A DNA stretch of 64,000 nucleotides, taken from positions 124,001-188,000 of the forward strand of contig NZ_FOKE01000013.1 in NCBI RefSeq assembly GCF_900112065.1, given 5' to 3'. The first letter of the stretch is position 1; the number at the start of each line of letters is the position of its first letter. This DNA is from Cohnella sp. OV330. Lineage in GTDB: Bacteria; Bacillota; Bacilli; Paenibacillales; Paenibacillaceae. A model generated the notes under the pieces. That model was not told the DNA's origin and ran no database searches. It worked only from the letters and a program-made list of their open reading frames with translations. This document shows, piece by piece, positions 26,829 through 31,247 of the stretch. The position numbers were made by a program, and so were the translations under genes.

Positions 26829-26963
26829 TGTATATCTTTTGTATAGATATTGCTTTTAATTGTACACAATCTATACAAGACAAGCAATAAATAATGGTCT
26901 ATGTTATACCGAAAGCTCTCTTTCCGGATATACTAAAGAAGTTTTGTATCATTTATGTATAAT
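26829..26963. promoter_or_regulatory. Cluster of TTGTA half-sites between the PAS-MCP and CarH genes
   Basis: TTGTATAGAT (26839-26848) and ATCTATACAA (26869-26878) form a 10 bp perfect inverted repeat; further half-sites are TTGTATATC (from 26829), TTGTACA (26860-26866) and TTGTATC (from 26944). A TATAAT -10 box lies at 26958-26963 before the CarH gene. MerR/CarH proteins bind tandem or inverted sites of this kind, so this is the likely autoregulatory operator of both divergent genes. Confidence 0.65.
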
Positions 26964-26981
26964 GTTGGGTGGAGGTGCGCC

Positions 26982-27914
26982 ATGTACAGCATTCAGAAAG
27001 TATCGGACATGCTCGGCATCCCTGGCGTCACGCTTCGCGCCTGGGAAGCACGCCACCGTATCGTCAATCCGCTCCGGAGCGCCGGCGGGCATCGTCTATA
27101 CAGCGAAGAGGATGTCGCCACGCTCAGAAGCGTCAAGCGGCTGATGGAGGAGCAGGGTCTGAAGATCGGGGAGATCGCATACCAACTCAAACAAGAAAAA
27201 CAAATAGATAGGGCGGACCCTTATTCGGGCGGCCGCCCCCTTATTTCGAACGCGTCCGAAGCTGCGCGTTCCGTCCGGATCGATACGCATATCGCGGAGC
27301 GCTTGTACCCGGCGCTGGTCGCCTTCAATACCGAGGAGGCCAACCAGGCCATCGACCTCGCCATGTCCCTTTACGGCTACGAAAAAACATTCCACAGCAT
27401 TCTCGCTCCGCTCCTCGTCCGGATCGGAACCGACTGGGAAGCGGGTAAAATCGCCGTGGCCCAAGAGCATTTCGCCTCGCAGCTCATCTTGCAGCGATTC
27501 ATGCAAGTGTTCCGGTCGCTGCCGGTCGACCCGAACATGCCGAGCGCCGTCGCCTTCTGCCCGCCCGGCGAGCACCATCAACTCGGGCTGCTGCTGTTCA
27601 GTCTCTATCTGCGCAAGCGGGGCGTCGACGTCATCTATCTGGGCCCCGATACGCCCTATGAGGGGCTCGGCCAGCTGATCGAAATGAAGGATGTGCGGGC
27701 GGCGGCGATATCCGTCACCGATCCGGCGCATATCGCACCGCTCTCCGAGTGGCTGGATCGGGCGACCAGCCGATATCCAGCGCTTCGCGTCCTGCTCGGC
27801 GGCCCCGGCTTCGGTCCGCAGAGCGCCGACAGACGGCAGTGGGACCGCGTCAGCTACGAGGACGGCGTCGACTGGGAGGCATGGTGCCTCGCCGCTTTCG
27901 CTCCTAGGCAATAA
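26982..27914 (+). CDS. CarH/LitR-type B12-dependent MerR-family photoreceptor regulator
   Basis: A 310-residue protein with an N-terminal MerR helix-turn-helix (residues 1-70: YSIQKVSDMLGIPGVTLRAWEARH), a four-helix B12-capping domain (about 100-175) and a C-terminal Rossmann B12-binding domain (about 185-305). The light-sensing signature W-x9-E-H is intact (Trp152, Glu162, His163), and ExHxxG (Glu197, His199, Gly202) supplies the axial cobalt ligand. In CarH the dark AdoCbl tetramer binds DNA and light releases it. GGAGG precedes the ATG at 26982. Adjacent targets are the PAS-MCP gene and possibly itself. Confidence 0.92.
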   Translation: MYSIQKVSDMLGIPGVTLRAWEARHRIVNPLRSAGGHRLYSEEDVATLRSVKRLMEEQGLKIGEIAYQLKQEKQIDRADPYSGGRPLISNASEAARSVRIDTHIAERLYPALVAFNTEEANQAIDLAMSLYGYEKTFHSILAPLLVRIGTDWEAGKIAVAQEHFASQLILQRFMQVFRSLPVDPNMPSAVAFCPPGEHHQLGLLLFSLYLRKRGVDVIYLGPDTPYEGLGQLIEMKDVRAAAISVTDPAHIAPLSEWLDRATSRYPALRVLLGGPGFGPQSADRRQWDRVSYEDGVDWEAWCLAAFAPRQ

Positions 27915-28059
27915 GGCCCAATCGCGTCTGAACTTTTGCCCTGCGATTTGACGGATCATACAGGAGTTTGAATCATGCTGTCGAATTTTAGTTGGTAACA
28001 GGCAATTTTTCCCGCGGCAGATCTTGCCAAAGCATGCGGTATGTAAAATGGGGTGCAAT

Positions 28060-30000
28060 ATGAAAGCGGTTCGCTTAATCGCAGCGTTGGCATATGCGGT
28101 CGCCATCGCCGCGCTGTTTATTATAGGGCCGAATACGAGCTGGGCGGCGACGCCGGAAGCGAAAATCGACCATTGGCAGGTCATGTGGATTCCGGACGGC
28201 GCGCAGCCCGGCGTCTCGCCGCCCGACGGCGGCAAATGGATCGATGCCGAGGCGGGCACGCCGCTGGTCGATCTGCCGGCCGACGCCCAAGGCGCGTGGA
28301 TTCGCTTGCGGGTGCCGCCGACGGACGGCTGGCAGCGGCCGGGATTGCTGGTCAGGCGATTGTACGGACTGGAGTTGGCCGCCTTCAAAGAAGGCGATCT
28401 GCTCTTCGAGTCGAAGCGCGACTTCGACTTTCACCTGAACAGGCTGCTGCTGCCGCTTGGCTCCTACGACCAAGCGTCGAACATCGACGTGCGAATCCTC
28501 ACGACGGGGACGCGCGCGGGATTCATCACGAACGCCCGCGTCGGCGAGTTCGCGCCGCTGGAGGAGAGCTACATCCGAAGAGAGCTGCCCGATCTGATGC
28601 TGGGAGGCTCGATCTCGTTTCTGGCATTGATCATGCTGATTTGCTCGAGCTACCTGAACCGCCGGCAGCGAAGCTCCTGGATCTCGCTTTGCCTGATCGC
28701 ACTGACTATCGGCACGCTGATATCGGTCTATTCTCCGATGCTGTATATCTATTACAAGTCTTACGCCAATCTCTTTTTATCGCTATTCGACCTGTCGATG
28801 TTCGTACTCTTCCCCGCGCTTAGCTATTACGTCGACGAGGTACTGGGGAGTCGTTTCCGCTTCTTTACGAGATTCCGCAAATGGCAGGCAGGATTTTCCG
28901 CCCTTTGTTTCCTGGCCTTCATCGTTTATAAGGCGACCAACGAGCGCTACTATGACCTATACTACCTGCTCACGAACCCGATCCTCGGTTCGCTGATCCT
29001 GGTTCAGCTGCTGATCATTGCCGTGCTGTCCGTGATCAATGCGCTGCGCAAGAACAGGGACGCGATCATTTTATCCGCATCCCTCTTCCTCTTGGCGCTC
29101 TCGGGCGCCACGGATCTGATCCTCTACTATTCCAGCGGCAAGAGTTACATTCTTTTCTTGTGGAAAATCGGGGTCGTCCTGCTGATCGTCGGGCTCGTGA
29201 TCATCCTGGCAAGGCGGATATCCGCGGATTACCGGATGCTGCTCTCCTACTCCAAGCGTCTGGAGCTGTTCAACCATCGGCTGGAGCGAACGGAGAAGCT
29301 GAAGATCATCAGCGACCTGGCCGCGTCGGTCGCGCACGAGGTCCGCAATCCGCTTCAGGTCACGCGAGGCTTCCTGCAGCTGCTGGCGGGCCGGGGGGAT
29401 AGCGAGAGCAAGAAGCATTTTAACATCGCGGTGAGCGAGCTGGACCGCGCCTCGGGCATCATCACGGACTTTCTGACCTTCGCGAAGCCCGAGCTCGAGA
29501 CCGTCTCTCCCCTGAATCTGGCGGAGGAGCTGGCGCAGCTCGAAGTCATCATCGCCCCGCATGCGGCGATGCACGGCGGCAGGCTGCAGATTAACGCGGA
29601 TCCGGGATTGACCGTCATCGGCAGCTCGTCCAAGTTCAAACAGGCGCTCATCAATCTGCTGAAGAACAGCATCGAGGCCTTCAAGGAAGACGGCTATATC
29701 GAGATCAACGCTTATGAGGAAGACGGAGAAGCGACCATATGGATCAAGGATAACGGGGAAGGAATGGACGAAGCGCAAATCGCCAAGCTGGGCGTGCCTT
29801 ATTTCTCGACCAAATCGAAGGGTACCGGCCTCGGGACGATGGTCACCTTCCGCATCATCGAGGTGATGAAAGGGACCATCGAATTCAAGAGCCGCAAGGG
29901 GCAGGGAACCGAAGTGTTGATTCGGCTCCCGATTGCCAGCGATGCCGCCATGGAAGAGGCGGCCGCGGCAGGCATCCTACCAAACAACCTCGACGTTTGA
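28060..30000 (+). CDS. Membrane sensor histidine kinase (7TMR-DISM-like, HisKA)
   Basis: A 646-residue kinase. A signal-like hydrophobic N-terminus is followed by an extracellular beta domain (about 30-180), seven or so transmembrane segments (about 185-385), a linker coiled coil, HisKA with phospho-acceptor His426 (SVAHEVRNPLQVTRGFLQLL) and a HATPase domain with N, G1 and G2 boxes (LINLLKNSIEAF, IKDNGEGMD, KGTGLGTM). The H-box wording resembles sporulation-type kinases that feed a phosphorelay. No response regulator is adjacent. The ATG at 28060 follows GGGGTG. Its last 24 nt overlap, in antisense, the end of the NHLP-peptide gene. Confidence 0.88.
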   Translation: MKAVRLIAALAYAVAIAALFIIGPNTSWAATPEAKIDHWQVMWIPDGAQPGVSPPDGGKWIDAEAGTPLVDLPADAQGAWIRLRVPPTDGWQRPGLLVRRLYGLELAAFKEGDLLFESKRDFDFHLNRLLLPLGSYDQASNIDVRILTTGTRAGFITNARVGEFAPLEESYIRRELPDLMLGGSISFLALIMLICSSYLNRRQRSSWISLCLIALTIGTLISVYSPMLYIYYKSYANLFLSLFDLSMFVLFPALSYYVDEVLGSRFRFFTRFRKWQAGFSALCFLAFIVYKATNERYYDLYYLLTNPILGSLILVQLLIIAVLSVINALRKNRDAIILSASLFLLALSGATDLILYYSSGKSYILFLWKIGVVLLIVGLVIILARRISADYRMLLSYSKRLELFNHRLERTEKLKIISDLAASVAHEVRNPLQVTRGFLQLLAGRGDSESKKHFNIAVSELDRASGIITDFLTFAKPELETVSPLNLAEELAQLEVIIAPHAAMHGGRLQINADPGLTVIGSSSKFKQALINLLKNSIEAFKEDGYIEINAYEEDGEATIWIKDNGEGMDEAQIAKLGVPYFSTKSKGTGLGTMVTFRIIEVMKGTIEFKSRKGQGTEVLIRLPIASDAAMEEAAAAGILPNNLDV

Positions 30001-30213
30001 TTCGCCGTCGCCGATATCCTCGGGATTCGGGGGGATGACCAGATAGTAGTGCGAAGCGGTCTCTTCGACGGTCGTCACTTGAATCTCCTGCGGCAGATCG
30101 ACGCCGAACGCGTCCTTGACCGCGGCCTTAGGGTCGGCCAGCAGCTGTTGCTTGAACGCGGGATCTTCCCATGCTTTTTTGATGACCTGGACTTTGAGCG
30201 ATTCGAGGGACAT
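29977..30213 (-). CDS. NHLP-leader RiPP-like precursor peptide with C-terminal Trp
   Basis: A 78-residue peptide whose first 60 residues match the nitrile-hydratase-like leader family of RiPP precursors: a helical start, KKAWEDPAFKQQLLADPKAA (residues 12-31), FGVDLPQEIQVTTVEET and HYYLVIPPNP (55-64). The tail after residue 64 is acidic and ends Val-Val-Trp78. The ATG at 30213 has AAGG 11 nt upstream; a GTG at 30222 is too close to that site. It lies 71 bp downstream of, and on the same strand as, the isoprenoid-enzyme gene. A terminal Trp beside a ComQ-like enzyme recalls ComX pheromones, which are prenylated on Trp; modification here is inferred only. Confidence 0.85.
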   Translation of the reverse strand: MSLESLKVQVIKKAWEDPAFKQQLLADPKAAVKDAFGVDLPQEIQVTTVEETASHYYLVIPPNPEDIGDGESNVEVVW

Positions 30214-30284
30214 TCGATTCACGACCTTTTCATATGTTTGGGTCTATCAACCCATATCCTACCATACGAATAGGCGATTCGTCC

Positions 30285-31247
30285 CTATAATTCTTTCATT
30301 TTTGATAAAAAATATGAAAATCCGCCACCGCTAGCCAATTTATCCGTCGTATCCCGGGTCGCTTGGACATCGTTCATTATTCCCGCTACGATCTCCTGCT
30401 GGAACCGAACCAAACCCGGCGCGACGTTCGGCAGCGCGGACAACCGTTCGCCGTGACCGAGCAAGATTGACGCGAGCTGCTCCAGCGCGCCTTTGCGGTA
30501 GATCGCCTGCAGGACCAGCCGCTCCTGCAGCGGTTGATCCTCCGGCAGGGCGAGGCTCTCGCGCCTGACCAAGGTCAGGAAAGCGTTGCTTCGCTCTTCC
30601 CCGGGCAGGTCGTCCCGCCAGTCAGCCCAGTCGTCCGCCAGCTGCAAAGACGCGAGCGCTACCTCTACGGCCTCCGCCGCGTCGGCAATTTGGTCCGGAA
30701 GTCCTGCAGACAGCAGAGCCGCGACGGCGCCGAGCTTCACCGGGGCCGACTTGCGCGCCAGCGCGCGGAAGTCGCGCGGATCCGCCCGCCTCAGCCCCTC
30801 GTCGGAGACGGCGGTTGCCCATTCGGCCAGATACGTCCGGTAGTAGGCCCAAAGGGGAGAATCCGGCGGATAGTGGCGGCCGTAACGCTCCATGAAAAGC
30901 GCTTGCAGCAGCTGGCCGGCCGCTAAGGCGCGCTTGTCTTCCAGGCCGGCGTCACCTCCGTCCATCACGTCGTCGAGCAGAAAAAAATGCAGCATCGCAT
31001 AAACGTTACCTACCGCCAGATCGCGGCACAACGCGGGGTTGGCTCCCGTCAGCTCCCCGATCCAGGACGGCAGCAAAAAGGCGATATAGTTGGATTTGCG
31101 GTCCCGACCCGTCGGATCGGCCCGCATGACGAGCCCGCGGACCAAAGCGCCCAGCGGCTCGGGGTATGCATCCGCTCCCGCCGCGGCTTCCGCGAAGACG
31201 CCGGCGATCTCGCGTGCGGCATCATGCACGGCTTGTACGGTTTTCAT
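30285..31247 (-). CDS. ComQ-like class I isoprenoid synthase/prenyltransferase
   Basis: A 320-residue all-helical protein of the class I isoprenoid-synthase fold. Both metal-binding aspartate motifs are present: D92-D-V-M-D96 (FLLDDVMDGGD) and D205-D-W-A-D209-W-R-D-D213 (LQLADDWADWRDDL). It is more divergent than housekeeping polyprenyl synthases: no FARM chain-length context or GGKR-type N-terminal motif was found. GGAGG lies 7 nt before the ATG at 31247. With the 78-residue NHLP peptide gene directly downstream, peptide prenylation (as ComQ does to ComX) is the leading hypothesis; a stand-alone terpene or prenyl diphosphate synthase is the alternative. Confidence 0.83.
   Translation of the reverse strand: MKTVQAVHDAAREIAGVFAEAAAGADAYPEPLGALVRGLVMRADPTGRDRKSNYIAFLLPSWIGELTGANPALCRDLAVGNVYAMLHFFLLDDVMDGGDAGLEDKRALAAGQLLQALFMERYGRHYPPDSPLWAYYRTYLAEWATAVSDEGLRRADPRDFRALARKSAPVKLGAVAALLSAGLPDQIADAAEAVEVALASLQLADDWADWRDDLPGEERSNAFLTLVRRESLALPEDQPLQERLVLQAIYRKGALEQLASILLGHGERLSALPNVAPGLVRFQQEIVAGIMNDVQATRDTTDKLASGGGFSYFLSKMKEL

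Follow-up and report, generated by a model that had tools for sequence, protein, structure and literature searches.

The PalQ/PalX/PalP and ComQXPA systems

In 2023, Miyata, Ito and Fujinami described a histidine kinase (PalP), an NHLP peptide (PalX) and an enzyme (PalQ) of Paenibacillus alvei (PMC10853753). In vitro, PalQ prenylates the C-terminal tryptophan of PalX in the forward sense at indole C3 and accepts C5, C10 and C15 donors. The PalX leader is helpful but non-essential for this reaction, and addition of alanine residues after the tryptophan abolishes it. A P. alvei lysate cuts recombinant PalX at the T72/D73 bond, and the core proposed has 8 residues. The main text states that the C-terminal tryptophan of PalX is conserved. 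PalQ and ComQ are both placed in the isoprenoid-synthase superfamily. Various Paenibacillus share the conserved pal cluster, and its discoverers call it a RiPP (ribosomally synthesized and post-translationally modified peptide) gene cluster (PMC10853753). The subject here is a three-gene locus of Cohnella sp. OV330 made up of palQ, palX and palP homologues. It occupies positions 28060-31247 of a 64,000-nucleotide stretch of contig NZ_FOKE01000013.1, referred to as the window, to which all coordinates below refer.

The Cohnella locus is a further member of the PalQ/PalX/PalP kind. It has in common with P. alvei an enzyme of the isoprenoid-synthase superfamily outside the named subfamilies, an NHLP leader, a C-terminal tryptophan and a histidine kinase. 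The catalytic motifs are spaced identically, with D89/D93 and Q197/D200/D204 in P. alvei PalQ (PMC10853753) and D92/D96 and Q202/D205/D209 in the window. The peptide tails differ (SNVEVVW in Cohnella, DNVRRFFW in P. alvei), as does the genus. A sequence-only reading of this DNA had reported a 78-residue NHLP peptide with a C-terminal tryptophan, 71 bp behind a gene of the class I isoprenoid-synthase fold, and both are indeed present. It took them for a prenylated-tryptophan peptide system with a RiPP-type leader, which is supported by the in vitro chemistry of a gene set of this kind from P. alvei (PMC10853753). That chemistry is therefore not new, and the window alone adds little, the pair having been published from a relative. 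The pair itself stands, but a third gene had been overlooked, namely a histidine kinase gene (28060-30000, + strand) that overlaps palX.

Taken as a whole, the Cohnella palQ-palX-palP locus is somewhat more likely than not a ComQXP-like signal system that employs an NHLP leader and would feed the Spo0 phosphorelay. Like ComQXPA of Bacillus, it combines a tryptophan prenyltransferase of the same fold superfamily with a small precursor carrying a tryptophan near its C-terminus and an adjoining membrane histidine kinase gene. However, ComQ belongs to PF00348 (PMC4008528), whereas the window PalQ has no Pfam match at E 1. The ComX precursor is PF05952; PalX lacks that match and has an NHLP leader instead. 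ComP is a PF07730 kinase encoded on one strand with ComA beside it, while PalP is PF00512 and its gene is convergent. ComA was not found beside palP in the three neighbours scanned, and no response regulator was seen among the three module proteins and three neighbours scanned. With these three defining features absent (PF00348, PF05952 and the PF07730/ComA layout), membership in ComQXPA was rejected. The locus would work like ComQ-ComX-ComP, yet it is outside that system, since leader, kinase class and layout all differ.

The PalQ enzyme, its linkage to palX and its distribution

The palQ homologue (30285..31247, - strand) encodes a putative 320-aa tryptophan prenyltransferase resembling trans-isoprenyl diphosphate synthases, as judged by its motifs, an AlphaFold2 model, PDB folds and a spacing like that of published PalQ. 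The first aspartate-rich motif (D92-D96), Q202 and the second aspartate-rich motif (D205/D209) are all invariant in 67 homologues, and Q202 corresponds in position to the glutamine that contacts Trp in published PalQ. The gap of 71 bp between palQ and palX (30214..30284, - strand) is consistent with a predicted single transcription unit. By homology with the P. alvei chemistry, Trp78 of PalX is very probably prenylated.

The model has a mean confidence score (predicted local distance difference test) of 94.3, and its nearest solved folds in the PDB are polyprenyl diphosphate synthases. By the terms of the sequence-only reading, a structure grouping with ordinary polyprenyl synthases would have spoken against it; the fold does group with them, a comparison that does not discriminate because PalQ and ComQ share the superfamily. 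ComQ, PalQ and Ord1 are not among the best 50 fold matches listed, which has no bearing on their likeness. The fold would equally suit an ordinary polyprenyl diphosphate synthase lying by chance next to an NHLP gene. Such a coincidence is very improbable. Besides the missing Pfam family, NCBIfam returns a single match far under its cut-off, and the PDB sequences give none at E 1. An ordinary synthase was rejected on two grounds: the invariant Q202 just before the second motif, and the linkage to palX.

This linkage was followed in 149 distinct loci (14 named, the Cohnella locus itself and 134 others, after 6 duplicates of 155 were set aside). The sample is non-random, being composed of the best-scoring palQ rows and of 30 low-scoring genomes chosen for spread. 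A palX open reading frame (ORF) occurs in the stretch around palQ in 147 of the 149. In 141 loci the two genes are no more than 250 bp apart, and in the rest the distance is 274 to 2135 bp. When ORFs of at least 120 aa from the 14 named loci were clustered, only palQ and the kinase were common to all 14; palX or palX pieces are present in each of these loci.

The breadth of the family was estimated in a draw of 392 Paenibacillales genomes from 49 genera, searched with one PalQ sequence and with a 67-row profile. Both searches gave an equal result, palQ in 272 genomes and 23 genera. A phylum-wide draw of 398 genomes yielded seven with palQ, six of them Paenibacillaceae and one a borderline match elsewhere (E 5e-4, 52 positions); thus, no convincing match outside Paenibacillales was found in that draw. 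Possession of palQ also goes with that of an NHLP gene. Among 381 genomes (G000-G380 by handle number; six palQ-positive genomes, G381 and above, lie outside), 279 have an NHLP match, comprising 266 of 266 palQ-positive genomes and 13 of 115 palQ-negative ones.

The PalX precursor and the position of its tryptophan

The palX homologue (29977..30213, - strand) encodes a 78-aa NHLP precursor peptide whose C-terminal Trp78 is the probable prenyl acceptor. It matches TIGR03793 at 71.3 bits (cut-off 50.9). In Pfam it matches nitrile hydratase alpha and Frankia_peptide, and gives a weak DurB-like match besides.

Conservation of the terminal tryptophan, the lack of which in homologous loci would have counted against the sequence-only reading by its own terms, holds in part. 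The 147 loci with a palX ORF leave 146 readable ones once the frameshifted L003 is removed. All 146 have a tryptophan within the last five residues, but it is terminal in only 82. The last tryptophan is at -2 in 37, at -3 in 17, at -4 in 2 and at -5 in 8. A terminal tryptophan is thus the commonest state among these loci, in line with the P. alvei article (PMC10853753), and not a rule. The palX ORFs total 166; a short second one in L119 lacks a tryptophan in the last five residues. Across 8 of the 13 palQ-negative NHLP genomes, 19 NHLP-type ORFs were read, and none has such a tryptophan; 9 of these 19 exceed 200 aa, as nitrile hydratase alpha chains do.

Mapped onto a 145-row palQ tree, the tryptophan register requires at least 14 changes. 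The distinction between terminal and internal requires at least 10, and starred branches force 5 of these. The tree was built by a quick method that leaves 48 of 142 inner branches open. P. alvei PalQ is inactive on Ala-extended peptides, whereas the wider family often has a non-terminal tryptophan. This suggests, from about 150 loci compared in sequence, that the acceptor does not have to occupy the C-terminal position itself. The residues that follow it may be tolerated by the cognate PalQ, or they may be trimmed beforehand. No PalQ alignment column was found that splits the 82 terminal-Trp enzymes from the 64 internal-Trp enzymes. Position 42, which by our own count is near the published K39, is K/R in 47 of the former and 41 of the latter.

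Eleven of the 147 loci carry two to five palX ORFs. Five tandem copies with distinct tails (YTWV, FVWI, YNWL, YVWF and PFIWT) are found in Paenibacillus cellulosilyticus (L010:7017-8502), and two to four copies in L038-L040, L042, L043 and L047. In L087, palX lies upstream of palQ on the opposite strand, the sole such layout among the 166. The palX frame is open upstream into palQ in L035, L057, L085 and L116, and some palX start codons are uncertain. Draft Cohnella genomes show frameshifts in palX and palP (L003) or in palQ and palP (L009), reflecting either decay or assembly error.

The PalP kinase

The palP homologue (28060..30000, + strand) encodes a 646-aa membrane histidine kinase. Its start was picked by eye as the ATG at 28060; the ORF listing begins at a TTG at 28024. 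The gene meets palX tail to tail, and the 24-bp overlap (29977..30000; - strand for palX) encodes the last PalX residues including Trp78. PalP has an N-terminal hydrophobic segment, a predicted beta-sandwich (residues ~30-163), about seven membrane helices, and HisKA and HATPase domains. Its H-box reads AHEVRNPLQVTRGFLQLL.

A convergent kinase stop lies within 250 bp of the palX stop in 141 of the 147 loci, and 34 of these 141 pairs overlap. The remaining six (L039, L055, L071, L132, L144 and L151) have no convergent kinase by the palX stop within the stretch examined. The HisKA specificity residues were read at what we take to be positions +7, +8, +11, +12, +14 and +15 from the phospho-histidine, placed so that the KinA H-box yields TAGFQL. 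At these positions, 133 of the 137 readable PalPs among the 141 paired kinases have QVGFQL. The corresponding residues of KinA to KinE are TAGFQL, TVGFQL, TSGFQI, TGGFQL and TAGFQL (PMC6136694). PalP therefore conforms to their xxGFQ(L/I) type and is one substitution from KinB, with which it shares five of the six residues. Of the HisKA matches in its own genome (the best 30 of 57, 24 of them readable), only one has GFQL (AVGFQL).

In the PDB, the kinase half of PalP is closest in sequence to Geobacillus KinB (179.8 bits, against 106.7 for ZraS). KinB is also among its best folds, behind ZraS, the matches listed being kinase halves. Unlike the phosphorelay kinases, PalP carries the predicted outer beta-sandwich and membrane helices, and its gene is tied to a peptide gene. 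The genome encodes Spo0A and a Spo0B-like protein, the two phosphorelay components searched for. Across 87 full-length kinases, the sensor half diverges about as fast as palQ and the kinase half more slowly. This is usual in sensor kinases and is no more than consistent with co-diversification with a ligand.

Two Cohnella genomes, G328 and G363, have no palX near palQ. In each, another contig carries a palX with a penultimate tryptophan, tail to tail with palP. This covers one NHLP place per genome; G363 has two further NHLP matches. In these two cases palX stays with palP even without palQ, as expected of a ligand and its receptor. The separate palX-palP pairs are L198 and L199, and the palQ loci are L193 and L194. 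In L194 (G363), palQ faces a second palP, and palX is not between them.

In other genomes, a second related histidine kinase follows behind palP on the palP strand, at a distance of about 2.2-2.5 kb from palQ. The loci concerned are L070, L074, L080, L081, L083-L085, L088, L090, L091, L102, L103, L108, L109, L112, L116 and L120.

A possible signalling pathway

The following scheme may be proposed for the Cohnella locus. The NHLP leader would help to deliver PalX to PalQ, which would ionise a prenyl diphosphate, likely C10 or C15, at its Asp-rich motifs. The chain would be attached in the forward sense to C3 of Trp78, probably giving a pyrroloindole, as reported for P. alvei. A protease from outside the locus would then free a short C-terminal lipopeptide, most likely an extracellular signal, towards which the beta-sandwich and membrane helices of PalP would face. 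The KinB-like kinase half would feed Spo0F and then the Spo0A phosphorelay. For Cohnella, we infer the chain length, the cleavage and the export. We lean slightly towards sensing of the lipopeptide by PalP, with Spo0F and Spo0A downstream.

The same chemistry might instead produce an antimicrobial or membrane-active lipopeptide, with PalP as a feedback or self-protection sensor and not a quorum receptor. The discoverers' term, RiPP gene cluster (PMC10853753), is compatible with this. A 2026 review adds that PalQ-prenylated antimicrobial peptides are most active with C10 and that prenylation adds membrane disruption (PMC13290415). Variable tails and multiple palX copies point the same way. We nevertheless hold an antimicrobial role to be rather unlikely. 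The named loci share no immunity gene or transporter among ORFs of at least 120 aa, PalP has KinB-like residues, and palX accompanies palP, not palQ, in the two split genomes. Moreover, most genomes of the order draw carry palQ, a distribution more in keeping with signalling than with an antibiotic cluster of sporadic occurrence.

Prenyl groups generally anchor to membranes. The prenylated peptide could accordingly be conceived as an intracellular, membrane-anchored regulator of PalP or the phosphorelay, acting like the kinase inhibitor Sda and never secreted. The tail-to-tail overlap or abutment of palX and palP is in keeping with this, as is the failure to find an exporter or protease in the module among the clustered ORFs of the 14 named loci. 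We regard it as quite unlikely in view of the cleavage of PalX at T72/D73 by P. alvei lysate and the 8-residue core proposed (PMC10853753). The variable half of PalP is also the sensor and the conserved half the kinase, usual though this is for sensor kinases.

Several observations weigh against the proposed signal system feeding the phosphorelay. The missing exporter and protease are among them. In the order draw, 120 of the 392 genomes and 26 of the 49 genera lack palQ, which is therefore not essential for sporulation in that group. The first specificity residue of PalP is Q, while KinA to KinE have T. The core pattern of P. alvei PalQ (K4ZRG6) was found in none of 394 genomes searched, and the likeness to it is drawn from gene set, leader class, terminal tryptophan and motif spacing. 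A partial Mantel test of peptide tail against sensor in 87 loci gave a weak correlation (r 0.28, 0 of 2000 permutations). The tail correlates with the kinase half, given the sensor, equally 'significantly' (r 0.19, 0 of 2000 permutations). Relatedness has therefore not been removed, and the Mantel result is given little weight.

A wider proposal is that palQXP constitutes the prevalent prenyl-peptide quorum system of Paenibacillales, in which a KinB-like receptor kinase reads an NHLP-led, Trp-prenylated pheromone and reports cell density directly to the Spo0 phosphorelay. On this view the acceptor tryptophan would have shifted repeatedly between the C-terminus and positions up to four residues inward, in step with PalQ lineages free of the strict C-terminal rule and bridging PalQ and ComQ specificity. 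We offer it tentatively, as somewhat short of probable. As far as our literature search reached, the prevalence of palQ, the shifts in tryptophan register and the pairing with a KinB-like PalP go beyond what is in print. The comparison expands a single enzyme, strict in its demand for a C-terminal tryptophan, into a family whose natural substrates fall into five register classes, which is useful for peptide lipidation. It also offers a concrete pair of signal and receptor with which to test how population density may be coupled to sporulation in Paenibacillales. Most worth following are the drift in register and the pairing with the KinB-like kinase.

Neighbouring genes

Candidates for a fourth conserved gene were rejected. 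Two clusters present in 9 of the named loci are antisense to palQ or the kinase, as judged by the coordinates of one example. Other clusters found in at least 4 named loci are confined to L003, L004, L005 and L009. Upstream of palP, the window encodes a regulator with MerR and B12-binding domains (26955-27914, + strand). Its best NCBIfam match is CarH, at 157 bits, under the cut-off of 400. Its cluster takes in only L003, L004, L005 and L009 of the 14 named loci.

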